This document shows positions 8,073-46,194 of a DNA stretch of 64,000 nucleotides, one piece after another. Source of the stretch: Modestobacter roseus (GTDB lineage: Bacteria > Actinomycetota > Actinomycetes > Mycobacteriales > Geodermatophilaceae); the NCBI RefSeq assembly GCF_007994135.1, contig NZ_VLKF01000001.1:3844001-3908000 (forward strand). Direction: 5' to 3'. The first letter of the stretch is position 1. Every line of letters starts with the position of its first letter. The notes beneath the pieces are model-generated. The model was not told where the DNA came from. It worked only from the letters and a program-made list of their open reading frames with translations, and ran no database searches. The position numbers were made by a program, and so were the translations under genes.

Positions 8073-8783
8073 TCAGGCGGGGGCGTCGCGGAGCAGGTCG
8101 GCGGGGGCGACCAGGCCGGTGCGGTAGGCCAGCACCACGGCCTGCACCCGGTCGCGGCTGCCGGTCTTGGCCAGCACCCGGCCCACGTGCGTCTTCACCG
8201 TGGCCTCGCTGACGAACAGCTGGGCGGCGACCTCGGTGTTGGTGGCGCCGTAGGCCATCAGCACCAGCACCTCCTTCTCCCGCGGGGTCAGCTCCGCCAG
8301 CGCCCGGTCGTCCTGCGCCGGGGCGGCGCCCGCCGCGCCGGCGCCCCGGAGCATCGGGGCGACGTGCTGCAGCAGCCGCCGGGTGGAGCTGGCCGCGATC
8401 ACCGAGTCGCCGGCGTGCACCGTGCGGACCGCGGTGAGCATCTCCTCCGGTGGGGCGTCCTTGAGCAGGAAGCCGCTGGCCCCGGCGCCGATCGCCGACA
8501 TGACGTACTCGTCGAGGTCGAAGGTGGTCAGCACGACCACCTTGGGCGGGTCCGGGAGCGCGGTGACCTGCTCGGTCGCGGTGATCCCGTCGGTGCCGGG
8601 CATGCGGATGTCCATCAGGACGACGTCGGCGGGCGTCGACCGCAGCAGCTCCACCGCCGCGGCGCCGTCACCGGCCTCGCCCACCACGGTGAGGTCGGGC
8701 TGGGAGTCGATCACCATGCGGAAGCCGGCGCGCACCAGCTGCTGGTCGTCGACGAGGGCGACGCGGATCTGGCTGTCTGTCAT
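8073..8783 (-). CDS. NarL/LuxR-family response regulator
   Basis: The 236-residue regulator has a receiver domain (RVALVDDQQLVRAGF, phospho-acceptor in VVLMDIRMPGTDG, lysine in SGFLLKDAPPEE) and a C-terminal LuxR helix-turn-helix (LTPREKEVLVLMAYG, then NTEVAAQLFVSEATVKTHV). It is coupled to the histidine kinase gene by an ATGA overlap. It probably controls the adjacent exporter and its own operon. Its last codons lie inside a 13-bp tandem repeat, and the stop codon exists only because one repeat copy carries an A in place of G. Confidence 0.92.
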   Translation of the reverse strand: MTDSQIRVALVDDQQLVRAGFRMVIDSQPDLTVVGEAGDGAAAVELLRSTPADVVLMDIRMPGTDGITATEQVTALPDPPKVVVLTTFDLDEYVMSAIGAGASGFLLKDAPPEEMLTAVRTVHAGDSVIAASSTRRLLQHVAPMLRGAGAAGAAPAQDDRALAELTPREKEVLVLMAYGATNTEVAAQLFVSEATVKTHVGRVLAKTGSRDRVQAVVLAYRTGLVAPADLLRDAPA

Positions 8784-9958
8784 CGGGACGAACGGTAGGG
8801 CAGGACGGCGTGCACGCCGAACCCGCCGCCGTGGCGCGGCCCGGCGGTCAGCCGGCCGCCGTGCAGCTCAGCCCTCTCGCGCATGCCCAGCAGGCCCTGC
8901 CCCTGACCGTCGGAGACGGCGATCGCCGCGGCCGCCCCCCGGCCGTCGTCGAGCACGGACAGCTCCAGGCTGTCCGGCCGCCAGTGCAGCCGCACCCACG
9001 CCTTGCCGGCCGGACCGGCGTGCTTGAGCACGTTGGTCAGCGACTCCTGCACGATCCGGTAGGCGGCCAGCTGCGCGCCGGTGGGCATCGGCTGCGGCGA
9101 GCCCTCCACCAGCAGGTCGACGTCCAGCCCGCTGGCGCCGACGTCGGCCACCAGGTGGTCGATCGCCGCGACGTCGGGTTGCGGGGCGAACTCCTGCCCG
9201 TCGCCCTCCCGCAGCACGCCGAGCAGCGTGCGCATGTCGGTGAGCGCCTGCCGGCCGGTCGCCGAGATCTGCTCCAGCGCCTCGGTGGCGGCCGCCGGGT
9301 CGGCCTGCCCCGCGTACCGCCCGCCGTCGGCCTGGGCGATCACCACCGACAGGGAGTGGGCGACGACGTCGTGCATCTCCCGGGCGATCCGCGCCCGCTC
9401 GGCCTGGGCGGCCAGCCGCATCTCCTGCTGGTGCTCCATCTCCAGCAGCCGGGCGCGCTCCTCCAGGCCGGCGATCCGCAGCACCCGCGCGCGGCGCAGG
9501 TCGCCCAGCGCCCAGGCGGCGACGACGGAGACGCCGATGGAGCCGGCGATGATCAGCAGCGATGCCGGGTCGTAGGGGCCCTGGTAGTAGGTGAGGGCGG
9601 CGAGGGCCGCACCGACCAGGCCGGCCACGAGCCCGGCCCTGGACGCCCAGCGCGGCGCGTAGGCGGCCAGGGAGTGGACCGTCACCAGCGCGGCTGCGTC
9701 GGCCGGGAGGAGGTCCGAGGTCAGCACCAGCTGGGCGAGGCAGAGCACCACCACGACGGCGGCCGCCGGCACCGGGGCCCGTCGGCGCCAGGCCAGCGGC
9801 ACGCTCAGCAGGAAGCTGAGGACGACCCCCACGTCGCTCGCGTAACCGGAGCCGAGCAGGGTGGTGACGGAGAAGAACAGCGCGGCCAGCACGCTGTCGA
9901 CGGCGAACGGGTGCCGGCGCAGCCAGGCTGCGAGGCGCTCGAGGGCCGTGGAGTCCAT
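8780..9958 (-). CDS. DesK/LiaS-type sensor histidine kinase
   Basis: The 392-residue protein has five or six N-terminal transmembrane helices (to about residue 155) with very short loops. A HisKA_3 dimerisation box follows: ERARIAREMHDVVAHSLSVV, phospho-acceptor His near residue 200. The ATPase domain contains QESLTNVLKHAG and DDGRGA. The absence of a large sensor domain is typical of intramembrane-sensing kinases that monitor the envelope and control neighbouring ABC exporters. It is first in the operon with the response regulator. Confidence 0.92.
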   Translation of the reverse strand: MDSTALERLAAWLRRHPFAVDSVLAALFFSVTTLLGSGYASDVGVVLSFLLSVPLAWRRRAPVPAAAVVVVLCLAQLVLTSDLLPADAAALVTVHSLAAYAPRWASRAGLVAGLVGAALAALTYYQGPYDPASLLIIAGSIGVSVVAAWALGDLRRARVLRIAGLEERARLLEMEHQQEMRLAAQAERARIAREMHDVVAHSLSVVIAQADGGRYAGQADPAAATEALEQISATGRQALTDMRTLLGVLREGDGQEFAPQPDVAAIDHLVADVGASGLDVDLLVEGSPQPMPTGAQLAAYRIVQESLTNVLKHAGPAGKAWVRLHWRPDSLELSVLDDGRGAAAAIAVSDGQGQGLLGMRERAELHGGRLTAGPRHGGGFGVHAVLPYRSSR

Positions 9959-10063
9959 GGTGGCGACAGTAGGCAGCCGACGGCGTGTCGTCGTCGTCCT
10001 GCGGGGTGAGCCGCGTGTCCACCCGCGGGCTGATCGGGGTGCGGCGGAGGGTGCGGCCTCAGG
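9959..10063. promoter_or_regulatory. Promoter region of the kinase-regulator operon
   Basis: It contains TCGTCC-TGCG-GGGTGA at 9994-10009 and the 12-mer GCGGGCTGATCG at 10025-10036. Both are shared with the promoter gap of the adjacent exporter. The arrangement suggests autoregulation by the NarL-type regulator. It also separates this operon from the last gene of the P450 operon, which ends just to the right. Confidence 0.5.
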
Positions 10064-11125
10064 TCACGACGGTGTGGCCGTGGCCAGCGCCTGCTCGATG
10101 TAGGCCAGCTCCATCACGTGCTCGGCGGTCTTCCAGTAGAGGTCCAGGACCCCGGGGTCCGGGGTGAGGAACGACGAGGGCGCCCACGCGCCGTCGGGCC
10201 GCTGCCGGCGGACGAACCACTCGCCCATCTTCACGACCGAGGGCAGCTGACCGCTGTCCGGCGCAGCGACGTGCATGGCGGCGACGCCCCAGCCGAACTT
10301 GCAGATCTGCACCGACTCCACGTCGTCGAACTGGGCGTCCGTGCCGGCCCGGTTGAGCTCGAGGTAGTCCTGGCCCAGCCGGAGCGCGGCGCCGTCCCCG
10401 GTCTGCTGGGCGTAGCCGGCGAGGAAGGCTCCGGCGATCCCGGAGTGGAAGTAGGCCTGACGCGGTGCGGAGTAGTCCACCAGGCGCAGGAACGCCTCGT
10501 CGGGGGTGGCGTCCAGCACCAGGCCGTCCCCCCGCCAGCTGGGGTGGAGCCGGCCCGGCAGGGCTGGCTGCGCCGCGTGGTTCCGGGCCAGCCAGCGGTA
10601 CACCCCGCGGGCCATGTCGGCCTCACCGGTGACCAGTGCCGAGATGCCCAGCTGCCCGGTCTTGAGCGTGTCCTGCAGCGGGTCGGCGTCGAAGTCGCGG
10701 AGGTCGTAGGCGCCCCCGGACTCGGGATCCTGGAAGGAGGCCAGCCGGTCGGTGACGGTCCGTGCCGTGTCGTACCGGGCCAGCAGCCAGGCCGCGATCG
10801 CCAGCGGCGAGAGGTGGTAGACCGGACTGCCCGGTGCGTCCCCGCCGTGGGGCCCGGGACGCAGGTCCCCGTCGTCGGTGAGGGCCTCGCGCTCGACCCA
10901 CCCCATCATCGCCGCGGCGACGTCGGGGGCGCCCCCGACGCACAGCGCCCACGGCGCCCGCCACCAGACGTTGGCGACCTCGGCACCCTCGGGGCGGCCG
11001 TCGTCGCCGACCCGGTCGGTCAGCCAGCGCACCCCCTCGGCCCGGGCTGCCCGGATCCGGTCCAGCCCGGCGGGCGTGGGGGTGCTCGGCCACGCGGTGG
11101 TCGGCGGCGTGTCGTTCGTGCTCAT
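10064..11125 (-). CDS. Alpha/alpha-toroid protein (terpene cyclase/prenyltransferase-like), last gene of P450 operon
   Basis: I do not recognise a characterised homologue. The 353-residue protein is rich in tryptophan and helices and carries repeats of the kind seen in alpha/alpha-toroid proteins. The segment RRQRPDGAWAPSSF (about 305-320) resembles the QW motif of squalene/prenyltransferase-type toroids, and FQDPESGGAYD is a similar turn. There is no signal peptide or DXDD motif. It begins with an ATGA overlap on the HtaA gene, so it belongs to the seven-gene operon. It could be a cyclase, isomerase or glycan-active enzyme; the function is unknown. Confidence 0.6.
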   Translation of the reverse strand: MSTNDTPPTTAWPSTPTPAGLDRIRAARAEGVRWLTDRVGDDGRPEGAEVANVWWRAPWALCVGGAPDVAAAMMGWVEREALTDDGDLRPGPHGGDAPGSPVYHLSPLAIAAWLLARYDTARTVTDRLASFQDPESGGAYDLRDFDADPLQDTLKTGQLGISALVTGEADMARGVYRWLARNHAAQPALPGRLHPSWRGDGLVLDATPDEAFLRLVDYSAPRQAYFHSGIAGAFLAGYAQQTGDGAALRLGQDYLELNRAGTDAQFDDVESVQICKFGWGVAAMHVAAPDSGQLPSVVKMGEWFVRRQRPDGAWAPSSFLTPDPGVLDLYWKTAEHVMELAYIEQALATATPS

Positions 11126-11697
11126 GGCGTCGGTCGTCCTCGTCGTGGTGGGTCGATGGCTGTCCGTAGTGCTGCGGGTGGGGGAGGGAAGGCCAGGTCG
11201 TCGAGGCTCTCGCCCTCCGGGTAGACCAGGTCGAACACCTCGGCTCCCGCGGAGGTGAGCCGAGCGCGGACACCGTGACCGCAGACGCCGGGGTCGTCCG
11301 GGTGCAGGGGCGGCGCGAGGTCGAACGTCAGCAGGGGGAGCCGACGGGGGGGACCGGCGTCGACCGGCGCGCCGCAGATGGAGAGCACGCCGCCGGGGCC
11401 GCGCACCTCGAGGACGGGGTCGGCGATGCGCACGAAGAGCAGGCCGTGGTGGCCGGAGAAGCGCACGTCCCCCCGGAACCGGTGCACGGCGGCGCCGACG
11501 CTGGGGTCGAGGTGCCACGTGCCGTCGGGGCTGAAGGAGAACGTGCGGTCCGCGGCGACGTCGGCGCCGTCGGTCACCGAGCACCGGCCATCGGGCATCC
11601 GGGCCAGGTAGCGCAGGAAGGACGCCTTGACCCCCCATCGCAGGGCGGGCAGTGCGACGGGTCCCGGACGGGCGGGGGAGAGCGGTGTCCCGCTCAT
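11122..11697 (-). CDS. HtaA-domain protein without secretion signal
   Basis: The 191-residue protein fits the HtaA domain: ALRWGVKASFLRYL, then a DGA segment, FRGDVRFSGHHGLLFVRI, DPVLEVRG, and a C-terminal YPEGESLDDLAF. Characterised HtaA domains in Corynebacterium bind haem at the cell surface. Here there is no signal peptide, membrane anchor or sortase signal, and the gene sits inside a P450 operon with ATGA overlaps on both sides. A cytoplasmic role, perhaps ligand or haem binding for the P450, is inference. The conserved haem-ligand tyrosine of CgHtaA was not confirmed here. Confidence 0.7.
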   Translation of the reverse strand: MSGTPLSPARPGPVALPALRWGVKASFLRYLARMPDGRCSVTDGADVAADRTFSFSPDGTWHLDPSVGAAVHRFRGDVRFSGHHGLLFVRIADPVLEVRGPGGVLSICGAPVDAGPPRRLPLLTFDLAPPLHPDDPGVCGHGVRARLTSAGAEVFDLVYPEGESLDDLAFPPPPAALRTAIDPPRRGRPTP

Positions 11698-13154
11698 CGC
11701 GCGATCAGGGTGTACTTGGTGGACAGGTACTCGTCGAGCCCCTCGGCACCGCCTTCGCGGCCGACGCCGGACTGCTTGACGCCTCCGAAGGGGGCGGCCG
11801 CATCGGACACCAGGCCGGTGTTGAGGCCCATCATCCCGGTGTCGAGCCGGTCGATCATCCGGTCCCCGCGGGCCAGGTCCCGGGTGAAGACGTAGCTGAC
11901 CAGCCCGTACTCGGTGTCGTTGGCCAACGCGACGGCCTCGTCCTCGGTGTCGAAGGGCACCACGGCGAGGACCGGCCCGAAGACCTCCTCGCGGAGCAGG
12001 CGGCTGCCCGGGGGCACGTCGGCCAGCACCGTCGGGGCGTAGAACGAGCCCGCGCGGTCGAGGCGTGCGCCGCCGGTGCGCACGGTGGCGCCGCGGTCCA
12101 CGGCGTCGCTGACCAGCTCGTCCACGCCGGCCACGGCCCGGTCGTCGATCAGCGGTCCGATGGTGACGTCCGGGTCCGTCCCGGCACCGACGACGAGGGC
12201 GGCCACCCGTTCGGCCATCCGGGCGGTGAACTCCTCGGCTACCGAACGGTGCACCAGGAACCGGTTGGCCGCGGTGCAGGCCTGGCCGGTGTTGCGGAAC
12301 TTCGCCGACACCGCGCCGTCGACGGCGGCGTCCAGGTCGGCGTCGTCGAACACCAGGAAAGGGGCGTTGCCACCCAGCTCCATCGAGGTCCGCAGCACGT
12401 TGGTCGAGGCCTGGGCCATCAGCCGCCGTCCGACCGGCGTGGATCCGGTGAAGCTGAGCTTGCGCAGCCGGGGGTCGGCGATGATCCGTTCGGACACCGC
12501 CGCGGGGGCCGCCGTGGTCACCACGTTGACGACCCCGGCCGGGACGCCGACGTCGGACAGCAGCTGGGCGAACAGGAGGCTGGTCAACGGGGTCAGCTCC
12601 GCCGGCTTGAGCACCACCGGGCACCCGGCGGCCAGCGCTGGTGCGATCTTGCGGGTGGCCATGGCCAGCGGGAAGTTCCACGGCGTGACCAGGTAGCACG
12701 GCCCCACCGGCCGGCGGCTCACCACGATCCGCCCGGTCCCCGACGGGTTGTCACCGAACCGACCCGAGACCCGCGGGGCCTCCTCGCCGAACCAGCGCAG
12801 GAACTCGCCGCCGTAGGCGATCTCCCCGAGCGCCTCGCGGTGGGGCTTGCCCATCTCCGCGGTCATCACCGCGGCGAAGTGCTCGCGGCGTTCCTGCAGC
12901 AGGTCGAAGGCGGCCCGCAGCAGCTCGCCACGCACCCGGGGCGGCGTGGCAGCCCAGTCCTCGGCTGCGGCGACCGCGGCGTCCAGGGCCGCCACGCCGT
13001 CGACCACCCCGGCGTCGGCGATGCTGGCCAGCACGTCGCCGGTGGCCGGGTCGTGCACGTCCAGCTGGGCGCCCGTCGCGGCCGGTCGCCAGGACCCGCC
13101 GATGAACAGCTGATCCGGGACGCCCAGCTTCGTGGAGGCCTCGGTGGCGGTCAT
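11694..13154 (-). CDS. NAD(P)-dependent aldehyde dehydrogenase
   Basis: The 486-residue enzyme has the family motifs VTPWNFPLAM, the catalytic glutamate in ELGGNAPFLVFDDAD and the catalytic cysteine in NTGQACTAANRF. Close resemblance to GabD-type succinate-semialdehyde dehydrogenases is seen, but the operon context (P450, ferredoxin) suggests oxidation of an aldehyde formed from the pathway substrate. The ATG chosen precedes TATEASTKLG and overlaps the reductase stop by four bases; the frame is open further upstream, but that sequence is antisense-like. Confidence 0.9.
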   Translation of the reverse strand: MTATEASTKLGVPDQLFIGGSWRPAATGAQLDVHDPATGDVLASIADAGVVDGVAALDAAVAAAEDWAATPPRVRGELLRAAFDLLQERREHFAAVMTAEMGKPHREALGEIAYGGEFLRWFGEEAPRVSGRFGDNPSGTGRIVVSRRPVGPCYLVTPWNFPLAMATRKIAPALAAGCPVVLKPAELTPLTSLLFAQLLSDVGVPAGVVNVVTTAAPAAVSERIIADPRLRKLSFTGSTPVGRRLMAQASTNVLRTSMELGGNAPFLVFDDADLDAAVDGAVSAKFRNTGQACTAANRFLVHRSVAEEFTARMAERVAALVVGAGTDPDVTIGPLIDDRAVAGVDELVSDAVDRGATVRTGGARLDRAGSFYAPTVLADVPPGSRLLREEVFGPVLAVVPFDTEDEAVALANDTEYGLVSYVFTRDLARGDRMIDRLDTGMMGLNTGLVSDAAAPFGGVKQSGVGREGGAEGLDEYLSTKYTLIAR

Positions 13155-14455
13155 GCGAGCACGTCCTGACCGTGCGTCCGGGGGGCCGGGGCGCCGGTCG
13201 AGGAGGGGCGGGTCGACGTCCGCAACGGGGTGCCCGGGTCCGCGGCGAGCGCTGCCGGGACGGTGCTGCCCGCGGCGAGGGCGGCGCGGACCGCCATGAA
13301 GTCCAGCGGGCTGTTCACGCACTCGGCTGCGGCCAGCGTGTCCCCGCGGTAGTAGAGGACGCTGAAGCGCTCGGTGCCCGGGTCGCCCCGCACGACCTGC
13401 TGGTCACAGCCCTGGCTGAGGCCCGCGACCTGGAGCTTGAGGTCGAACTGGTCGGACCAGAACCACGGTGGGGTGCGATAGGGAAGCCGCTTCCCGGCCA
13501 GGGTCGCGGCGGCGACCTTGGCCTGCTCGACGGCGGTGTTCACCGACTCGAAGCGCATCCGGGGGGAGGCGCCGGCGACGGGGGTGGGGCAGTTGACGCA
13601 GTCCCCGGCGGCCACCGTCGTGCCATCGCTGGTCAGGCCGTGCTCGTCCACGACGATGCCGTTGTCCACCCGCAACCCCAGGTGCTCGGCCAGTTCGGTC
13701 CGTGGGACGGCGCCGATGCCGACGACGACCAGGTCGGCTGGCACGTGGGTGCCGTCGGTGAGGTCCAGGCCGGTCGCGCGCCCGTTGCCGTCGTCGGTGA
13801 CGGCAGCGACGCCGACGGAGAAGTGCAGCGTGCACCCACGACGCTCGTGCGCGCGCCGGAAGAACTCGCTGATGGGTTCGCCCACGGCTCGGCCCATCAG
13901 CCGGTCGTCGGCCAGGACGACGGTCACGTCCTTGCCCAGTCGGCGCACGCTGGCGGCCACCTCCAGCCCGATGAAGCCGCCACCGACGATGACGACGCGG
14001 TCGGCGCGGGTCAGGTCCTCCCGCAGGGCGAGGGCGTCGTCGGTGTCGCGCAGGTAGCGGACGCCGGCCAGGTCCGCGCCGGGGACGTCGAGCCGACGCG
14101 GGCGAGCGCCCACGGTGAGGGCGAGACGGGTGAAGGGGAACCGGCGGCCGGAGCTGGACACCGCCACACCGGAGCCGTCCGGCCGTCGCTCCACCGACGT
14201 GATCCGCTGGTCCAGCACGAGGTCGATGCGCTGCTCCGCGTAGAACTGGGGGGACCGGAACACCAGGGACCCGGTGGGCAGGTCACCCTGCAGCAGGGCC
14301 TTGGACAGCGGGGGGCGCTGGTAGGGGGGGTGTGCCTCCGCGCCCACGACGGTGATCGGGTCGTCGAGGCCCTGCTCGCGGAGGGAGCTGGCCAGCTGCA
14401 CGCCGGCCTGGCTGGCCCCGATCACCAGGACCCCGCGCTCGTTCGTGGGGCGCAC
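13151..14455 (-). CDS. FAD-dependent ferredoxin reductase
   Basis: The 434-residue flavoprotein has an N-terminal dinucleotide fold (VLVIGASQAGVQLASSLRE), a second NAD-binding fold (VVIVGGGFIGLEVAAS) and the FAD motif TVAAGDCVN. It fits the putidaredoxin/rhodocoxin-reductase family, which passes electrons from NADH to a [2Fe-2S] ferredoxin. The ferredoxin gene ends two bases upstream and the P450 lies just beyond, so the whole class I electron-transfer chain is encoded here. The GTG start is supported by the immediate upstream stop and the fold beginning at residue 8. Confidence 0.92.
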   Translation of the reverse strand: MRPTNERGVLVIGASQAGVQLASSLREQGLDDPITVVGAEAHPPYQRPPLSKALLQGDLPTGSLVFRSPQFYAEQRIDLVLDQRITSVERRPDGSGVAVSSSGRRFPFTRLALTVGARPRRLDVPGADLAGVRYLRDTDDALALREDLTRADRVVIVGGGFIGLEVAASVRRLGKDVTVVLADDRLMGRAVGEPISEFFRRAHERRGCTLHFSVGVAAVTDDGNGRATGLDLTDGTHVPADLVVVGIGAVPRTELAEHLGLRVDNGIVVDEHGLTSDGTTVAAGDCVNCPTPVAGASPRMRFESVNTAVEQAKVAAATLAGKRLPYRTPPWFWSDQFDLKLQVAGLSQGCDQQVVRGDPGTERFSVLYYRGDTLAAAECVNSPLDFMAVRAALAAGSTVPAALAADPGTPLRTSTRPSSTGAPAPRTHGQDVLA

Positions 14456-14457
14456 GG

Positions 14458-14781
14458 CTACTCCTGGGCCTCGGGCAGCGTGACGTGCAGGTCGCCGAGC
14501 TCGTCGCTGACGACCAGCTGGCAGGACAGCCGAGAGGTGGGACGGCGGTCGTCGGCGGTGCCGTCGAGCATCTCGTCCTCCAGCTCGCCCACGGGAGGCA
14601 GCCGATCGGCGTCCCCTGCGTCGACGAAGACGTGGCAGGTCGCGCAGGACAGCACGCCGCCGCACTCGCCCACGATCCCGGCGACCCCGTTGCGTACAGC
14701 GGTCTGCATCACCGAGTCGCCGGTGGTTGCCGAGATCTCGCGGACGTCACCGTCGGCGGAGGTGTAACGGATGGTGGGCAT
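14458..14781 (-). CDS. [2Fe-2S] ferredoxin, adrenodoxin/putidaredoxin type
   Basis: The 107-residue protein has the vertebrate-type ferredoxin spacing C-x5-C-x2-C (ECGGVLSCATCHVF) and the distal cysteine in SRLSCQLVV. It should carry electrons from the FAD reductase encoded two bases downstream to the P450 encoded upstream. The acidic surface segment PPVGELEDEML matches the reductase-docking helix of putidaredoxin-like proteins. An alternative upstream ATG would add 13 residues without homology. Confidence 0.93.
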   Translation of the reverse strand: MPTIRYTSADGDVREISATTGDSVMQTAVRNGVAGIVGECGGVLSCATCHVFVDAGDADRLPPVGELEDEMLDGTADDRRPTSRLSCQLVVSDELGDLHVTLPEAQE

Positions 14782-14888
14782 GACGGAGCTCGCCTCTCTG
14801 AGGGGTGGTCGGTGGGACATCGGCGCGACCTCGCCCGCCGGGCGACGGCGGGCGAGGCGGCGCGCGGCTCTCGTGCGCTGGGCAGGGT

Positions 14889-16133
14889 CTACGCGACGTC
14901 GTCGACCGGGAGGGGGCTGCGCGGGGTGAACGTCACCGGCAGCCGGGTGAACCCGGCGGCGAGGCCGATGGAGGGGAAGACCCGGACCCCCGACCGGTCG
15001 ATGGTGAGGTCGGGGATGGCCGTCGTCAGCGTGGTGAGGACGTCGTAGATCTCCAGCTTGGCCAGCGGCGAGCCGAGACAGCGGTGGCCACCGCTGCTGA
15101 AGCTCACGTGGTCGCGGGCGTTCTCGCGCTCGAGGTCCACGGCGTCCGGCTCGGGGAACTTCGCCGGGTCCCGGTTGGCGCCGGCGAGCCACATGAGGAT
15201 CCGCTCCCCCCGCCGGATGGGCTGTCCGAGCAGCTCGGTGTCGCGCACGGCGGTGCGGGCGATGTGGTGAGCGGGCGGGTGGACCCGGAGGAACTCCTCG
15301 ACGGCGTTGACGCGGAAGGGCTCGTCCTCGCGGATGCGCGCAGCCTCGACGGGGTGGTCGTCCAGCCACAGCAGCGCGTTGGCCATCAGCGACACCGACG
15401 TGTCGAACCCACCGAAGACCAGCGCGTTCATCATGCTCTCGCCCTCGTCGAGGCTGAGCTGTCGACCCTCCACCTGCCCGTTGGCCAGGGCGGAGATGAT
15501 GTCGTCCGCCGGCGCCTCGCGGCGGGCCAGCAGCATGCGGCGGAAGTCCTCCCGCATGCGCGCCTGCTCCTCGTGCGGGTAGTCCGGGTCGGTGGTGGGC
15601 AGCGAGGCACCACGGTGCGCGGCCGCGGCCGCGTCCTCCCACTTGTCCGCGTCGTAGCCGAGCACGTACAGCGTCGTCCGGGCCGTCGTCGGGATCAGGA
15701 TGTCGTCGATCAGATCGGCCGATCCCTGCTCGATCACGGTGTTGATGGCCTCCCGCAGGTGCCGGTGGGCCACCGGCCGCAGGCGGCGCAGGCCCTTCGG
15801 GGCGAAGAAGGGGGCCTCCAGCCGGCGTCGGCCGGTGTGCAGCGGCGGGTCGGACTCCCCGAGGAACAGCCGGTAGGGCATCTGCGGGACGATCTGCCCC
15901 TTGCCCCCGTTCTCCGTCCCGTCGAGGTCGTTGACGGACGTGAAGGTCTCCCAGTCCGTGGCGACGCGCTGGACGGCGTCCCAGTCCGCGAGCACCCAGG
16001 ACCCGCCGTGGTGCTCGGTCCAGGCCAGGGGTCTGCCGGTGGCGTGGAGATCGGCGGCCAGCCGCTGCCAGTTGTCGCGGTACTCGGCCGAGTGGTGGTC
16101 GAAGTCGATGGTGGGTCGTTCGATGGCGGTCAT
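14889..16133 (-). CDS. Cytochrome P450 (operon P450)
   Basis: The 414-residue protein has the I-helix motif GGFDTS, the ExxR helix (EEFLR) and the haem loop FSSGGHRCLGSPLAKLE with the thiolate at about C352. It is soluble, with no N-terminal anchor, as expected for a class I bacterial P450 served by the ferredoxin and reductase encoded downstream. The I-helix Asp in place of Glu and the ASLPTT region are unusual but not diagnostic. The subfamily and substrate are not recognised. A GAGAGG ribosome site lies about ten bases before the ATG. Confidence 0.93.
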   Translation of the reverse strand: MTAIERPTIDFDHHSAEYRDNWQRLAADLHATGRPLAWTEHHGGSWVLADWDAVQRVATDWETFTSVNDLDGTENGGKGQIVPQMPYRLFLGESDPPLHTGRRRLEAPFFAPKGLRRLRPVAHRHLREAINTVIEQGSADLIDDILIPTTARTTLYVLGYDADKWEDAAAAAHRGASLPTTDPDYPHEEQARMREDFRRMLLARREAPADDIISALANGQVEGRQLSLDEGESMMNALVFGGFDTSVSLMANALLWLDDHPVEAARIREDEPFRVNAVEEFLRVHPPAHHIARTAVRDTELLGQPIRRGERILMWLAGANRDPAKFPEPDAVDLERENARDHVSFSSGGHRCLGSPLAKLEIYDVLTTLTTAIPDLTIDRSGVRVFPSIGLAAGFTRLPVTFTPRSPLPVDDVA

Positions 16134-16184
16134 GCCGGGGTGACCTCTCGGGCTGCGGGTGGGGGTGGTCGCTGTGCCGGCCGG

Positions 16185-17492
16185 TCAGGCCTGCGCTGAT
16201 GGGGAGTCGGCCGGCGCGTGCCCCGCTCTGGCGATGACCTCGTCGAGCACGGGCAGGATGGCCTCGTTGAACCCGACCGGGTCGTCGCACGGGGCGAAGT
16301 GGCCCAGGTCGGGGAGCTTCACCGACACCGCGCCGGGGATGTTCTTCTCCACGGCCGGGCCCCCGTTGACGTCGTCGTCGGCGGCCGGGTCGTACTCACC
16401 GGTGACCACGTACACCGGCTTGCTGCCGGCATCGATCTTGTGGCCGTTCCTGTTCAGGTCGTGCTCGAACATGAAGTAGTCGTTGTCCCCGGCGTAGATG
16501 CCCGGGAAGTTGGACCGGTAGATCCAGTACGTCTCGTGCGCGTTGGGCTCGGGTGCGTTCGGCGCCGTGGCGCCGAAGTTGAGCGAGGGCGCGTAGTCGT
16601 CGCTGATCCCCGGCGTGCGGAACAGGTCGTTGCTGAAGCCCTCGGGCAGGCGGGGGTTGCCGTACCAGCCGTTCAACGCGACGAAGGCGCCGAACCGCTC
16701 ACCGCGCTCGGCCGCCAGGTCCAGGGCGAGCTGCCCGCCGACGGAGCAACCCATGAAGAAGGGCTGGTCCAGCTGGAGGTGGTCGGCGATGGCGACGACC
16801 CAGTTCATCAGCCATTCCTGGCCGGGCAGGTAGGGCTGCTCCCACCACCGCACGCCGACCGGGGGGAGGGACTTGCCGTGGTAGGGCAGGTCGTAGGCGT
16901 ACATGGTGAACCGCTGCTGCATCTCGGGGTCGGCGAGCAGGTGGCGGTACTGGCGGCCATCGGTGCCGGCGGTCGGGTGCAGCAGCAGCGGGATGGGACC
17001 GGTGCCCGCCTGCTCGTAGTACACGCGCGCCTCCTCGCCGGCGGCGGTGATGTAGGCGTACCGACCCACTGCCGAGTCCGTGTCGCGGTAGGGATCGCGG
17101 ACGGGCTTGCGCACCGCCTCACCTGCGACGGTCTCCCGCACCACCTTGAACAGCCGGTCGATGCCCGCGAACCAGGGCGCCACGACCCGGGCGAGGTCGG
17201 CGTCCACGAACACGCCGTGCGACATGCCGCCGGTCAAGCTCTCGTACCCGGGTGCCGGTGTGGCCCTGGAGAAGGTCCCGGTCCAGAACTCCTCGGGCCC
17301 CCGGACCACGGCATCAGCCGGTCCTTCGGCCGGGCGCACCCCCGTCACGGTCCCCCCGGCGACCACGACGTCGAACTCCTGGCCGGGGACGGACATCCGG
17401 ATCGTCCCCGAGAAGCCCCGCAGCTTGTAGGCCAGCTCCACGTCGGCCTGCGCGCGGGCGAGGACCTGCTGGTGGTCGATCTGGTGAGTCAT
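16185..17492 (-). CDS. SCP2-like domain fused to alpha/beta hydrolase, first gene of P450 operon
   Basis: The N-terminal 130 residues (VELAYKLRGFSGTIRMSV, DVVVAGGTVTGVRPAEGPAD, FWTGTFSR) look like an SCP2/sterol-carrier or similar small-molecule-binding fold. Residues 150-420 are an alpha/beta hydrolase: oxyanion region LLLHPTAGTDG, nucleophile in MGCSVGGQ (about S250), Asp near GEYDPAADD and His in LGHFAPC. The fusion suggests hydrolysis of a hydrophobic or carrier-bound substrate. It starts at an ATG with AGAGGCGG upstream, directly facing the operator region, and leads the seven-gene operon. Confidence 0.8.
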   Translation of the reverse strand: MTHQIDHQQVLARAQADVELAYKLRGFSGTIRMSVPGQEFDVVVAGGTVTGVRPAEGPADAVVRGPEEFWTGTFSRATPAPGYESLTGGMSHGVFVDADLARVVAPWFAGIDRLFKVVRETVAGEAVRKPVRDPYRDTDSAVGRYAYITAAGEEARVYYEQAGTGPIPLLLHPTAGTDGRQYRHLLADPEMQQRFTMYAYDLPYHGKSLPPVGVRWWEQPYLPGQEWLMNWVVAIADHLQLDQPFFMGCSVGGQLALDLAAERGERFGAFVALNGWYGNPRLPEGFSNDLFRTPGISDDYAPSLNFGATAPNAPEPNAHETYWIYRSNFPGIYAGDNDYFMFEHDLNRNGHKIDAGSKPVYVVTGEYDPAADDDVNGGPAVEKNIPGAVSVKLPDLGHFAPCDDPVGFNEAILPVLDEVIARAGHAPADSPSAQA

Positions 17493-17544
17493 GAACCCGC
17501 CTCTGAGTCGCGGGTCGGCGCTGCGCCGACCTCGTCGTCGGAAA

Positions 17545-17627
17545 TGTCAGCCAGTGACACGGAGCACTGTATGGCTCGTGTCACACGCTGACAAGGGGTG
17601 GCGGAGCGCAATTGTCAGCCAGTGACA
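17545..17627. promoter_or_regulatory. Triple operator TGTCA-N5-TGACA between TetR gene and P450 operon
   Basis: Three 15-bp sites lie at 17545-17559 and 17613-17627 (both TGTCAGCCAGTGACA) and 17579-17593 (TGTCACACGCTGACA). Their centres are exactly 34 bp apart, slightly over three helical turns. The two outer copies extend identically for 19 bp. They sit in the 194-bp gap between the divergent TetR gene and the hydrolase gene, the expected place for the TetR operators. Confidence 0.8.
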
Positions 17628-17686
17628 CGGACCGTCTGGCGAGTGGTGCGCCCCGTGTCGTTCCGCGCCGCTGGTTCACTTGACCC

Positions 17687-18334
17687 ATGACCGGGCCGCG
17701 CGACGAGCAGGACTGGGCAGCGGCGACCGCCGCACTCAACGTCGCCGAGCTCGTCAGTGAGCGCCGCGCAGCGAAGGTGCGGCCCACCCGGGTGGTGGCC
17801 GAGCGACTGGTGAGCGCCGCGATGACCCTGTTCGCGGAGCGGGGCTTCGAGGCGGTCACGGTCCAGGAGATCGCCGAGCGCGCGGGCGTCACCAGCCGGA
17901 CGTTCTTCCGGTACTACCCGACCAAGGAGACCGTGGTCGTCGACCTCTTCGACCGCTCCAACACCCGCTTGGTCGAGCTCATCAGGACGACGCCGGCCGA
18001 CAACGGGGTGCAGGACATGCTGCGCGATGCGGTCGGCCGCTGGTTCCAGGAGTACGAGGACTTCTACCGCGCCACCACGGCCATCACCGAGGCCTCGCCG
18101 AGTCTGCAGTCCGCCGTGCTCCTGCGCAGCACCACCTGGGAGGAGCACCTCGCCGACGTGCTCCGCGAGAGGTTCCCGGAGCTCGACGACGACGTCCGGT
18201 GGGCCTTGGCCCTGCTGACCTTCGGCGTCCTGCGGGTTGCCCACCAGAAGGCCACCGCACGCAACATCTCCTACGAGAAGGCGGCCTTCGACGTGTTCGA
18301 GGCGCTGGCGGCCGTGTCGCGCGACCCTCGCTGA
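17687..18334 (+). CDS. TetR-family regulator of the P450 operon
   Basis: The 215-residue protein has a TetR helix-turn-helix at about residues 40-85 (RLVSAAMTLFAERGF, VQEIAERAGVTSRTFFRYYPTKE) after an unusually long 35-residue N-terminal extension, and a helical ligand domain after it. It is divergent from the seven-gene operon and faces the three TGTCA-N5-TGACA sites, so it is very likely the local repressor. TTCACT ends six bases before the ATG with no ribosome site, which could indicate a leaderless message. Its 3' end overlaps the convergent HAD gene by 64 bases. Confidence 0.9.
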   Translation: MTGPRDEQDWAAATAALNVAELVSERRAAKVRPTRVVAERLVSAAMTLFAERGFEAVTVQEIAERAGVTSRTFFRYYPTKETVVVDLFDRSNTRLVELIRTTPADNGVQDMLRDAVGRWFQEYEDFYRATTAITEASPSLQSAVLLRSTTWEEHLADVLRERFPELDDDVRWALALLTFGVLRVAHQKATARNISYEKAAFDVFEALAAVSRDPR

Positions 18335-19035
18335 ACCGTCTGCACCCGGCCGGTGACGGTGATCCCGTCGGGGGTCACCGCGAACCGCAGGTGTGACAGG
18401 TCCGGCGCGTGCGCGTCGGCGTCCAGCTCGTGGTGCGGGTGGGTGTCGCCGACGGCGAGGGTGGTGCACCCGGCGGCGCCGGCCGAGGCCAGCCCGGCGG
18501 GTGCGTCCTCGACGGCGAGGCAGCGGGCCGGGTCGAACCCGAGCCGGCGGGCGCCGAGCAGGAACGGGTCGGGGGCCGGCTTGCCGTGCTCGACGTCGTC
18601 GAAGGTCACGATCTCCCGCGGCCGGGGCAGCCCCGAGCCCGCCAGCCGCGCGGCGAGCAGCGTGCGGGTGCACGAGGTGACGATCGCCACCCGCTCGGGC
18701 GGCAGGGCGGCCAGTGCGTCGGCGGTGCCCGGCAGCACGGCGATGCCCGTCGCGGCCGCGTCGATCTCCAGCTGCTCGATCCGGGCGACGGCGTCGGCGA
18801 CCCGGTCGGCGGCGAGCAGCTGCCCGATCACCTGCACCGCGGGGCGGCCGCCCATGCCCAGCTCGGTGAGCACGGCCGGGTCGACGCCGTGCTCGTGTGC
18901 CCAGGTGTCCCAGGCGGCGAGGGCACCGCTCATGGAGTCGATCAGCGTGCCGTCCATGTCGAACAGGACGGCGTCGAACGTCCGCCCGGTCAGCGCGGCG
19001 AGGTCGAGCGAGGGGGCGGCGGTGGGCTCGGGCAC
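18271..19035 (-). CDS. HAD-family phosphatase (beta-phosphoglucomutase-like)
   Basis: The 254-residue protein has motif I AVLFDMDGTLIDS, motif II IVTSCTR, lysine in VEHGKPAPDPFLLGARRLG and motif IV CLAVEDAPAGLASA. This is the sugar-phosphatase/phosphoglycolate-phosphatase branch with a helical cap. The GTG start has GAGGA seven bases upstream. The last 25 or so residues read antisense through the 3' end of the TetR gene and look unlike a normal HAD C-terminus. Its original stop may have been lost when the P450 cluster was joined here. Confidence 0.88.
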   Translation of the reverse strand: MPEPTAAPSLDLAALTGRTFDAVLFDMDGTLIDSMSGALAAWDTWAHEHGVDPAVLTELGMGGRPAVQVIGQLLAADRVADAVARIEQLEIDAAATGIAVLPGTADALAALPPERVAIVTSCTRTLLAARLAGSGLPRPREIVTFDDVEHGKPAPDPFLLGARRLGFDPARCLAVEDAPAGLASAGAAGCTTLAVGDTHPHHELDADAHAPDLSHLRFAVTPDGITVTGRVQTVQRGSRDTAASASNTSKAAFS

Positions 19036-19550: not shown

Positions 19551-20894
19551 TCATGCGCTGGCGCGGTGCTCCAGGTCGGTGGCCCGGTCCAGGGCGGCGC
19601 ACTCGGCGGCGAAGTCGGCCAGTGCCCGGCGCAGCGCCACCCCGAGCCGGTCGGAGCGCACGTGCAGCTCGTCGCGGAGCAGCAGCGGCAGGCCGGTGGA
19701 CGCGGTGCCGGCCACCAGGCGCAGGTCCTCGGCCAGTGCGGCCTGCTCGGCGGCCACCTCGGCGGCCAGCACCGCCGCCGGCACCGGCTGCCCGTCGACG
19801 CCGCGGAGGAAGAGGCAGGTGTAGACCCGGGTCGAGTCGGCGTCCTCCGGTTGCAGCACCGTGACCACGGTGGTCCCCGCGCCGTCGGGCGGGGTCAGCC
19901 GCAGCAGCAGCTGGAACGGTGCCCGGTGCACGTAGGTCACCTGCAGCACCCCGTCCGCGACCGCCCGTTCCTGCCGGCTGCAGAACCCACCCGGTTCGCG
20001 GGTGACGGGCTGGTCGGGCACCTCGCCGTCCTGACCGGCGGCCGAGGCGTGCACGAACGGCACGTGCGCGACGTCGACGAGGGCGTCGACCAGTGGACCG
20101 GCCGGCGCGGCGGTCCGGGCCGGGGGCAGCCAGGCGGCGGTGCACCGGGGGTCGTCCGCCTCGGGCACCGGCAGTGGCCGGTCGCGCGGCTCGTCGGGCG
20201 CCAGCCAGATCAGCCCGAGCCGCTCCGTCACGCCCCAGGCCGGCGGATCGGCGTCCAGCGCCCCGCCGCGCCGGTGCACGGTCCAGTTCCGGCCGAGCAG
20301 CCGCACCTGGACGTACCCGCCGTCGCGCAGCTCAGCGGCGAGCGCCACCGGGTGCCAGGCGTGCTCCAGCGCCGGGTCGAGGTTGCCCAGCACCGGGCCG
20401 GCCGGCTCCGGCAGCTCGGGCACCTGCTCCGGGTCGGGCGCCGGGTGGGAGCCGCCGGCCCGCGGCGGCCGGGCGACCGTCGTGCGCTCGGGGGCCAGCC
20501 AGACCCAGCCGTCGCGCTCCTCGACCGCCCACGGCACCGCGAGGTCGGCGCGCGGCGGGGGAGCGCCGTCCGGGCCGAGCGCGGGGATGAGCGTGCAGCG
20601 GCCCTCGGCGTTGAACTGCCAGCCGTGGTAGCCGCACTGCAGCCGGCCGTCGACGACGGTCGCGGTGGTCAGCGGCACCAGCCGGTGCGGGCAGCGGGCG
20701 CCGACGGCGGTCACCTCGGCCCCGGGCGCCAGCCGGACGACGACGAACGGCTGACCGCCGGCGCCCACCGGGAGCGGCGACGTCCCGACGTCCGACGAGC
20801 GGGCCACCGGGTACCAGCCGGTGCCGTCACCGGCCCCTCCATGAGTCGTCCGCGTGCCCGTGCCCCGCGTGCCGCCAGCCCAGGAGAACGCCAT
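19551..20894 (-). CDS. Rieske non-haem iron oxygenase with second degenerate Rieske-like segment
   Basis: The 447-residue protein has an N-terminal Rieske domain with ligands C68-P-H70 and C87-x2-H90 (CPHRL, CGYHGW). Residues 180-236 (WHPVALAAEL, VQVRLLGR, WGVTERLGLIWLAPDE) parallel residues 27-135 of the first domain (WYPVARSSDV, WAVEERDGWVWLAPE) but lack the cluster loops. The catalytic domain shows DALVDVAHVPFVH, in which D274, H277 and H282 can form the iron facial triad. It is probably a terminal oxygenase needing a separate reductase; none is adjacent. The substrate is unknown. Confidence 0.82.
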   Translation of the reverse strand: MAFSWAGGTRGTGTRTTHGGAGDGTGWYPVARSSDVGTSPLPVGAGGQPFVVVRLAPGAEVTAVGARCPHRLVPLTTATVVDGRLQCGYHGWQFNAEGRCTLIPALGPDGAPPPRADLAVPWAVEERDGWVWLAPERTTVARPPRAGGSHPAPDPEQVPELPEPAGPVLGNLDPALEHAWHPVALAAELRDGGYVQVRLLGRNWTVHRRGGALDADPPAWGVTERLGLIWLAPDEPRDRPLPVPEADDPRCTAAWLPPARTAAPAGPLVDALVDVAHVPFVHASAAGQDGEVPDQPVTREPGGFCSRQERAVADGVLQVTYVHRAPFQLLLRLTPPDGAGTTVVTVLQPEDADSTRVYTCLFLRGVDGQPVPAAVLAAEVAAEQAALAEDLRLVAGTASTGLPLLLRDELHVRSDRLGVALRRALADFAAECAALDRATDLEHRASA

Positions 20895-44985: not shown

Positions 44986-46194
44986 TCAGGCGGTGAGGAC
45001 GACGGGCAGGTCGGCGAGCCCGCGCATCACGAACTCCGGACGGCGCTGCGGCCGCGCGCCGAGCTCCAGCGACGAGGTGCGGGACAGCAGTGCGCCGAAG
45101 GAGGCCTGCAGCTCGACCCGGGCCAGCGGCGCGCCGATGCAGAAGTGCACCCCGGCGCCGAAGGAGATGTGCGGGTTGTCGGTGCGCCCGACGTCGAGGG
45201 TGTCCGGGTCGGTGAAGACGCGCGGGTCGCGGTTCGCGCTGCCCAGCAGGGCGGCGATCTTCTGCCCCTGCGCCACGGTGACCCCGCCGATCTCCACGTC
45301 GGCGGTCGCGGTGCGCTCGAACAGCTGCAGCGGCGAGTCGAAGCGCATCAGCTCCTCGATCGCGGTGGGCAGCAGGGCGGGGTCGTCCCGGAGGCGCTGG
45401 AGCTCCGCAGGGTGCTCCAGCAGGGCCAGCAGGCCGTTGCCGCTGACGTTCACCGTCGCCTCGTGGCCGGCGTTGAGCAGCAGGATGCAGGTGGTGACCA
45501 GCTCGTCCTCGGTCAGCCGGTCGCCCTCGGAGTCGCGCACGGTGACCAGGTGGGTGAGCAGGTCCTCGCCCGGGGTGCGGCGGCGTTCGGCGGCGAGTTC
45601 CCGCAGGTAGGCGACGAACTCGGCGGCGGCCCGCTCGGCGTCGTCCTCGACGGCGGTCGTCCGGCCGTACTCGTACATCTTCACGATCGCGTTGGACCAC
45701 GGGCGCAGCAGCGGCCGGTCGGCGGACGGGACGCCGAGCAGCTCGGCGATGACGGCCACCGGCAGCTCCTCGCTCATGCCGGACAGGACGTCGACCGGGG
45801 TGCTGCCGCCGGAGCGCGCCACCAGCTGGTCGACCAGGCCGTCGGCCAGTTCCTGCACCCAGGGCCGCAGCCGCTCGACGTGGCCGCGGGCGAACGCCGT
45901 GCTGATCAGCCGGCGCAGCCGGGTGTGCTCCGGCGGCTCCATCTCCAGGATCGCGTTGCGGTGGATCAGGTTGAACTGGCCGAACCGCTCCGCGGGCGCC
46001 TTGTCCCGCCAGATCCGGCCCAGGCGGCGGTCGCGCAGCACGGCGTTGGCCTCGGCGTGGGTGAACGCCAGCCACATGCCCAGGCCCGCGTCCCACTGCA
46101 CCGGCGCCTGCGCCCGGGCGCGCGCGAACGTGGGGTAGGGATCGGCGACCACGGCCGGGTCGGCCAGGTCCAGGGGGGTGGCAGCCAGCGTCAC
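44986..46194 (-). CDS. Cytochrome P450 (stand-alone)
   Basis: The 402-residue P450 has I-helix NAGHEATV, the ExxR region in AIEELMRFDSPLQLFERTA and haem loop FGAGVHFCIGAPLARVEL with the thiolate at about C352. It resembles CYP107-like soluble actinobacterial P450s. No ferredoxin or reductase is adjacent, so it must borrow redox partners, possibly those of the 13-16 kb operon. The GTG start lies inside a 21-bp palindrome. Confidence 0.93.
   Translation of the reverse strand: MTLAATPLDLADPAVVADPYPTFARARAQAPVQWDAGLGMWLAFTHAEANAVLRDRRLGRIWRDKAPAERFGQFNLIHRNAILEMEPPEHTRLRRLISTAFARGHVERLRPWVQELADGLVDQLVARSGGSTPVDVLSGMSEELPVAVIAELLGVPSADRPLLRPWSNAIVKMYEYGRTTAVEDDAERAAAEFVAYLRELAAERRRTPGEDLLTHLVTVRDSEGDRLTEDELVTTCILLLNAGHEATVNVSGNGLLALLEHPAELQRLRDDPALLPTAIEELMRFDSPLQLFERTATADVEIGGVTVAQGQKIAALLGSANRDPRVFTDPDTLDVGRTDNPHISFGAGVHFCIGAPLARVELQASFGALLSRTSSLELGARPQRRPEFVMRGLADLPVVLTA

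Follow-up and report, generated by a model that had tools for sequence, protein, structure and literature searches.

An eight-gene P450 locus and its promoter

We analysed a 64,000-nucleotide stretch of the Modestobacter roseus genome (contig NZ_VLKF01000001.1 of assembly GCF_007994135.1, forward-strand positions 3,844,001 to 3,908,000; hereafter the window, whose numbering is used throughout), focusing on a cytochrome P450 operon and the regulator gene beside it. An earlier note on this DNA had described seven same-strand genes, and an open reading frame (ORF) and translation check found all seven at 10064-17492 on the minus strand. Pfam supported the identity proposed for each gene except the (alpha/alpha) toroid protein, which was placed instead as a homologue of AprG; the matches were P450 (3e-21), Fer2 (1.1e-8), Pyr_redox_2 with Reductase_C, Aldedh (6e-163), HtaA (PF04213; 1.1e-23, 85 bits against a cut-off of 24) and alpha/beta hydrolase (5.6e-12). 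ATGA overlaps, said to join most of the genes, were present at three of the six junctions (ferredoxin reductase/aldehyde dehydrogenase, aldehyde dehydrogenase/HtaA and HtaA/toroid). The idea of an inducible oxidation operon holds, and in our reading the locus is likely a P450 system for catabolism or detoxification that can be induced. The earlier note did not mention the TetR-family gene that diverges from the operon (TetR_N, 1.3e-16), nor the operator-like sites, nor where the block begins and ends. The eight genes, the repeated promoter palindromes, the edges of the block relative to genomes without it and the recurrence of the gene set in other genera are all read directly from the sequence. 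The features are listed below; G and L numbers are our handles for genomes and loci.

10034..18354, no strand: whole module of operon and TetR gene, about 8.3 kb; homology to genomes G085, G088 and G098 stops at 10033 and resumes at 18351-18355
10064..11125, minus strand: AprG-like (alpha/alpha) toroid protein, 353 amino acids (aa), with invariant K276 and E335 (profile, alignment and model)
11122..11697, minus strand: single-domain HtaA protein, 191 aa, predicted to be cytosolic, with Y30, H83 and Y159 retained (Pfam and alignment; residue roles from the parts consulted of PMC12494546)
11694..13154, minus strand: aldehyde dehydrogenase, not in the Streptomyces operon copies (Pfam)
13151..14455, minus strand: flavin adenine dinucleotide (FAD)-dependent ferredoxin reductase, GTG start (Pfam)
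14458..14781, minus strand: [2Fe-2S] ferredoxin (Pfam)
14889..16133, minus strand: cytochrome P450 with heme motif FSSGGHRCLG (Pfam; motif by eye)
16185..17492, minus strand: fusion of an SCP2-like domain (weak match) and an alpha/beta hydrolase with nucleophile elbow GCSVGG (Pfam; elbow by eye)
17545..17627, no strand: three operator-like sites TGTCA-N5-TGACA (motif counts in window and genome)
17687..18334, plus strand: divergent TetR-family regulator (Pfam; kin beside the operon in other hosts)

By Pfam, the class I P450 set is complete, with a P450 carrying the heme Cys motif, a [2Fe-2S] ferredoxin and an FAD reductase. FSSGGHRCLG, GGFDTS and EEFLR, which we take to be P450 motifs, and the Cys residues presumed to form the ferredoxin motif were read by eye. 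The best solved P450 matches for the window P450 were at about 1e-41 and pointed to neither a clear subfamily nor a substrate. Class I bacterial P450 catabolic operons include the camphor, terpineol and cineole types. The window operon shares with them a P450, a [2Fe-2S] ferredoxin, an FAD ferredoxin reductase, a dehydrogenase and one regulator, and goes beyond them in its AprG-like toroid, single-domain HtaA and SCP2-like/hydrolase fusion.

In the 194-bp divergent promoter, TGTCA-N5-TGACA occurs three times, with start positions 17545, 17579 and 17613 and a spacing of exactly 34 bp. Shuffles of the window gave an average expectation of 0.04 such sites, and in the whole 4.5-Mb genome the motif occurs only at these three places. 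One such site each was present in the matching promoters of operon copies from Streptomyces (L049, L050, L052 and L055), genome G762 (L179) and Paractinoplanes (L053), and in the divergent promoter of a Rhodococcus copy (L056); no site of this type was found at L054, L015 or L051. The three palindromes are putative binding sites of the TetR protein.

The fusion gene described earlier stood in its hydrolase part, whereas the SCP2 part (PF02036) is a weak match on the hydrolase N terminus, with 12.9 bits in the window, 15.9 in Streptomyces and 20.6 in Nocardia against a cut-off of 21.3. SCP2 matched three of eight N-terminal domains, and five gave no match. The assignment rests on these Pfam matches because the model of the fusion protein was poor (predicted local distance difference test [pLDDT] 66.7, from seven sequences) and the 50 Foldseek rows shown were hydrolases. 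At L086 and L088, the stretch matching the fusion spans two ORFs, and the N-terminal part and the hydrolase seem to be separate neighbours; at L084, where a small ORF lies ahead of the hydrolase match, the same may apply. An alpha/beta hydrolase on Rhizobium etli plasmid p42d (WP_008534369.1, L048) has 31% identity to residues 7-405 of the fusion and lies near a zinc alcohol dehydrogenase, a metallo-hydrolase and an annotated acyl-homoserine lactonase; P450, HtaA and toroid were not matched within the 25 kb examined there. Rhizobium accounts for 48 of the 113 plasmid records that match the hydrolase fusion at 1e-20.

Recurrence in other genera and borders of the block

A profile scan of genome contigs with the toroid alignment gave at least 33 loci, which, with four others, were searched with all eight proteins; the operon copies found are a lower bound. 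Class-level searches scored four to eight candidates per genome, and two HtaA searches up to 18 and 14, so that absences there are soft. The search for gene order in actinobacteria that the earlier note had called for found synteny in Streptomyces, Paractinoplanes, Nocardia and Rhodococcus, and a convincing toroid in one of 112 genomes of the window's own family. Four Streptomyces copies have TetR, SCP2-hydrolase, P450, ferredoxin, reductase, HtaA and toroid genes in the window order, with no aldehyde dehydrogenase gene between them (in L052, a 41% partial match to it lies 4.4 kb downstream). These four are close, with 95.8-99.6% identity to L049 in the downstream genes, and were counted as one lineage. 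The Paractinoplanes copy has all eight genes in the same order as the window, and L179 has nearly the Streptomyces arrangement. The Nocardia copy (L054) has the hydrolase on the TetR side and an aldehyde dehydrogenase, without HtaA, and in Rhodococcus ruber L056 and G257 (L015), TetR, reductase, ferredoxin and hydrolase lie on one side and toroid and P450 on the other. Since the linked set is present in other genera in different gene orders, its linkage is not due to chance. A damaged copy in Streptomyces sp. DSM 15324 (L051) retains an open toroid frame, with a partial P450, a split reductase match and no hydrolase found.

In L049, the toroid gene is followed downstream by genes for two zinc alcohol dehydrogenases, a beta-lactamase-fold hydrolase and an aldo/keto reductase; downstream of its own toroid, L053 encodes a hydrolase that Pfam assigns to the beta-lactamase fold and an aldo/keto reductase (about 56% identical). 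The Rhodococcus toroid has acyl-coenzyme A (CoA) dehydrogenase, ring-hydroxylase and CoA-transferase genes within about 10 kb. The neighbours of the Streptomyces, Paractinoplanes and Rhodococcus copies point to catabolism. The earlier description of the operon as uncharacterised agrees with the open-licence literature, in which no characterised copy was found by title or abstract.

Three relatives of the same genus lack the 8.3-kb block of operon and regulator at the position that it occupies here. In G085, G088 and G098 (L183, L184 and L197), the gene for the left histidine kinase adjoins that for the right HAD hydrolase, with 13-21 bp between the points at which homology to the window stops and resumes. 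These clean empty sites were found among 16 loci of close relatives; in ten others the neighbour of the kinase is a second kinase-like match (L185-L194), and in the remaining three neither a HAD neighbour nor a second kinase was seen in the 1.5 kb of flank viewed. Toroid matches were present in two of the 112 family genomes, the window's own and one weak partial match (1.2e-4, residues 13-99). The block was probably acquired horizontally; its rarity in the family argues for gain rather than loss. No transposase or integrase was recognised in the block and no border repeat was found; neither its repeats nor the tRNA genes pointed to a vector. The histidine kinase gene on the left lies at 8780-9958, and the second kinase neighbour in L185-L194 indicates that this chromosomal place varies within the genus.

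The toroid and HtaA proteins

The toroid protein has no Pfam or NCBIfam family match. A single-sequence phmmer search of the PDB matched it to AprG at 1e-11, and a profile of 28 toroid sequences, the window's included, matched AprG at 2.3e-58 over positions 10-334 of 337. The alignment comprised the window and 27 of the 33 loci, with L050, L064, L066, L072 (stop in frame), L075, L081 and L014-L017 excluded. The earlier note had also proposed structure prediction: AlphaFold gave a confident, largely helical model (pLDDT 92.7, predicted TM-score 0.92), whose (alpha/alpha) toroid fold bears out the identity given to the gene. AprG filled the top 14 Foldseek rows (best E 3.6e-15, TM-score up to 0.79/0.83), and the next entry was a squalene-hopene cyclase (E 1.2e-6). 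K276, E335 and Q186 are invariant in all 28 sequences, with the same residues at the aligned AprG positions, and a TAE motif is common to both proteins. The lysine is also invariant in a separate toroid alignment that includes L014-L017. On profile and model evidence, the toroid is homologous to AprG, the apramycin transaldolase. The homology to AprG of Streptoalloteichus tenebrarius (PDB 9c95, 9lfi and others) is full length and extends to fold, lysine and TAE motif; AprG differs in that it sits in an aminoglycoside cluster, whereas the window toroid belongs to a P450 operon. The consulted parts of one account describe AprG as an aldolase and a biosynthetic enzyme (PMC11033246), and PDB titles call it a transaldolase, with complexes containing GlcNAc, GalNAc and an epimer of the octose product. 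A terpene cyclase assignment was rejected, AprG being a far better match.

Toroid relatives are also present, among the matches listed, in metagenome-assembled genomes of Chloroflexota, Acidobacteria, SAR202, Latescibacterota and Gemmatimonadetes. On Rhodococcus rhodochrous plasmid pGD02.2.1 (L014), a toroid gene (40%) is followed by a short-chain dehydrogenase/reductase and an alpha/beta hydrolase and, past an IclR gene, by CoA-ester catabolic genes. By eye, 12 loci with distant toroids had no common neighbourhood. No toroid was found in viral contigs by a single-protein scan, which reaches close relatives only.

The window HtaA protein is a single CR domain with no further domain beside it in Pfam. 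A hydropathy scan alone, with no signal-peptide predictor, detected no 19-residue segment of strong hydrophobicity (the highest mean was 0.95). In the CR-domain hemophores HtaA and ChtA of corynebacteria (PF04213), the consulted parts of the published account place an axial Tyr, a helper His (Tyr in ChtA) and, at a propionate, a Ser and a Tyr in contact with hemin (PMC12494546). By alignment, the window equivalents are Y30 (axial), H83 (helper) and S26 and Y159 (propionate). The Tyr, His and Tyr are retained in 21 of 21 HtaA sequences (17 stand-alone proteins plus those of the window, L049, L053 and L179); the propionate Ser is retained in 15, with Thr in three, Pro in two and Gly in one. Identity between the window HtaA and nine of these sequences is 26-48%. 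The likeness to the corynebacterial proteins lies in the CR domain with its axial Tyr, helper His and propionate Tyr; the window HtaA differs in being single-domain, without an evident signal or membrane segment, and of a stand-alone kind found near P450 genes. HtaA has been placed in a heme-transport cluster in the consulted parts of another source (PMC10060970).

Judging from these sequence features, the window HtaA is probably intracellular, and we do not class it as a secreted or surface hemophore. The earlier proposal that HtaA serves in import or binding of the substrate did not survive: import was dropped, as the hydropathy scan gave no evident signal or membrane segment, and heme appears a likelier ligand than the substrate because the hemin contacts are retained and no such segment is evident. 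In the window's own genome, HtaA-domain matches also occur at about 1.632 Mb (G000, contig C1), within open frames 423 and 807 aa long.

We then compared the neighbourhoods of stand-alone and longer HtaA frames outside this operon. HtaA search profiles were seeded with the HtaA proteins of the operon, and the P450 profile was built from checked seed sequences outside the tested loci. The first HtaA search gave 65 places in 50 genomes, and all ten frames below 260 aa outside the window's own genome were taken. Eight places were added, namely frames below 280 aa in G586, G596, G654, G564, G189 (contig C8), G762 and G886, and G646, which has an 845-aa open frame but a score resembling those of stand-alone proteins; G762, being the index operon, was excluded from the resulting 17. 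The 44 loci with longer frames came from 39 of the 40 other genomes, the window's own not counted (G186 was left out), and from L174-L178, four of them with 298-360 aa frames beside longer HtaA frames; the remaining longer-frame places of later searches and G777 (302 aa) were also left out. The frame-length cut was set by eye after the lists had been viewed and before P450 genes were counted. Stretches were 6.3-19.0 kb long (mean, 16.7 kb) for the 17 and 9.1-18.0 kb (mean, 16.9 kb) for the 44.

A P450 gene was present in the stretch at 12 of the 17 stand-alone loci (L120, L121, L122, L126, L127, L144, L169, L170, L171, L172, L173 and L180) and at none of the 44 loci with longer frames (Fisher's test, 4e-9). 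The P450 density of the same genomes predicts 1.12 of 17 (1.44 with upper-bound counts), and 12 or more would then arise with a probability of about 1e-11 (2e-10). With each genome counted once (G309 and G189 contribute two loci each) and without L144, which is doubtful (low score and a stop in the match, with a 133-aa frame that still matches HtaA), the count is 9 of 14 versus 0.92 expected (P = 2e-8). These statistics treat the loci as independent and take no account of shared ancestry or of the cut made by eye. At L173, P450, reductase and HtaA follow one another, with an ATGA overlap between the last two; at L126, HtaA follows the P450 after a gap of 26 bp from the first ATG/GTG start, or with a 4-bp overlap if a TTG start is used. 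The order at L127 is P450, aldehyde dehydrogenase, P450, reductase, alcohol dehydrogenase and HtaA, and that at L172 is HtaA, P450, aldehyde dehydrogenase, P450, reductase and alcohol dehydrogenase. In copies of the index operon, HtaA accompanies a window-type P450 (62-66% identity) and is missing with a P450 of 35-37% (L054, L056 and L015), with three lineages on each side; the Nocardia copy lacks HtaA yet has a 72% ferredoxin, a 71% aldehyde dehydrogenase and a 60% toroid. Neither an HtaA-P450 link nor such operons were found in the open-licence literature by title or abstract, where absence is weak evidence.

Proposed function and alternatives

We propose that the locus is a TetR-controlled catabolic or detoxification cassette, probably horizontally acquired, with an aldol-type step and a heme-handling partner, a composite reading to which we give an even chance. 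An inducer would release TetR from the promoter palindromes. The SCP2-like/hydrolase protein would bind a hydrophobic substrate and open a bond in it, such as an ester or a lactone; the P450, receiving electrons through ferredoxin and reductase, would hydroxylate the substrate; and the aldehyde dehydrogenase (alcohol dehydrogenases in other hosts) would further oxidise the product. For the terpenoid or steroid-like substrate suggested in the earlier note, the results gave evidence neither way. The AprG-like toroid may make or break a carbon-carbon bond next to a carbonyl, possibly via the invariant lysine; a lysine-dependent aldol-type step is plausible, with K276, E335 and Q186 as candidate catalytic residues. 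Within the cell, HtaA may bind heme and supply or buffer the co-expressed P450. A heme-handling role is plausible, and a chaperone would be its boldest form. In that form, which we put forward tentatively as the less probable case, stand-alone HtaA proteins would be an unrecognised cytosolic heme-chaperone family for particular P450s, a hemophore fold turned inward, and the P450 here would be coupled to an AprG-type aldolase, with hydroxylation followed by carbon-bond cleavage.

Several observations weigh against these proposals. Identity between toroid and AprG is about 23%, P58, W76 and W279 are invariant in all 28 toroids and differ in AprG, and neither the role of the AprG lysine nor the mechanism of AprG was found in the consulted parts of sources on AprG. 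The Streptomyces HtaA has Pro at the position of the propionate-binding Ser of hemophores. No P450 was present at five of the 17 stand-alone loci (L119, L123, L124, L125 and L168), and HtaA is either not solely a P450 partner or has its partner elsewhere. Other HtaA-P450 pairs are 1-7 kb apart, several of them 2-7 kb, and the link could run via shared catabolic islands. Three operon versions lack HtaA, which is therefore not essential to the pathway. Concerning acquisition, 13 of the 16 loci of close relatives show no clean empty site beside the histidine kinase.

It is also possible, if doubtful, that the toroid is another (alpha/alpha)-barrel enzyme, such as an epimerase, a glycoside hydrolase or a terpene-cyclase-like protein. 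Squalene-hopene cyclases, GH76 mannanases and a glucose-2-epimerase gave weaker structural matches, and a squalene-hopene cyclase a short profile match (6e-6), but AprG is the sole full-length sequence match, its Foldseek E value is better by more than eight orders of magnitude, and the lysine and TAE motif are common to both. That the operon makes rather than degrades a compound, as a small biosynthetic tailoring set, seems unlikely to us. The biosynthetic role of AprG would fit (consulted parts of PMC11033246), and P450s occur in both kinds of pathway; however, the module has no synthase, the Streptomyces copy lies beside alcohol dehydrogenases, a beta-lactamase-fold hydrolase and an aldo/keto reductase, and the Rhodococcus copy is near CoA-transferase, acyl-CoA dehydrogenase and ring-hydroxylase genes.

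Two further alternatives concern HtaA, and we consider both improbable. Repurposing as an intracellular carrier of a hydrophobic substrate or intermediate, in place of heme, would suit the SCP2-like domain in the same operon, which suggests handling of hydrophobic ligands, and the several stand-alone HtaA genes seen by eye among dehydrogenase and CoA-pathway-like genes; against it, the axial Tyr, helper His and propionate Tyr are unchanged in all 21 sequences, nine of which share 26-48% identity with the window HtaA. In the second alternative, HtaA would sense heme or act as a sink for it, protecting the cell or adjusting the P450 to the heme available, and would not be a delivery chaperone; this would account for the same heme-binding sequence data and for the stand-alone loci without a P450, but the window HtaA has no second domain, and a general sink need not track P450 genes.

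On our preferred reading of a catabolic or detoxifying cassette, the toroid extends its enzyme family to apparently catabolic clusters in several phyla, through a window member that has no Pfam or NCBIfam name; to our knowledge, the AprG family is otherwise known from one antibiotic pathway. The operon also hints at a dedicated heme helper for heme enzymes such as P450s. We know of no settled account of heme supply to bacterial P450s, and "bacterial cytochrome P450" was not found beside heme chaperones or heme insertion in open-licence literature listings. In actinobacteria, a gene predicted to encode a heme-binding protein tracks P450 genes; it is a concrete and easily testable candidate, with practical value for getting P450s to work in other hosts.

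Other oxygenase-like genes were observed elsewhere in the window. A second P450 gene lies at 44992-46173 on the minus strand (240 bits with the P450 profile built from outside the loci; Pfam p450, 1.1e-32), and a Rieske oxygenase-like gene lies past the right-border HAD gene at 19551-20894, also on the minus strand (Pfam Rieske, 1.6e-21; VanA_C, 5.3e-15).

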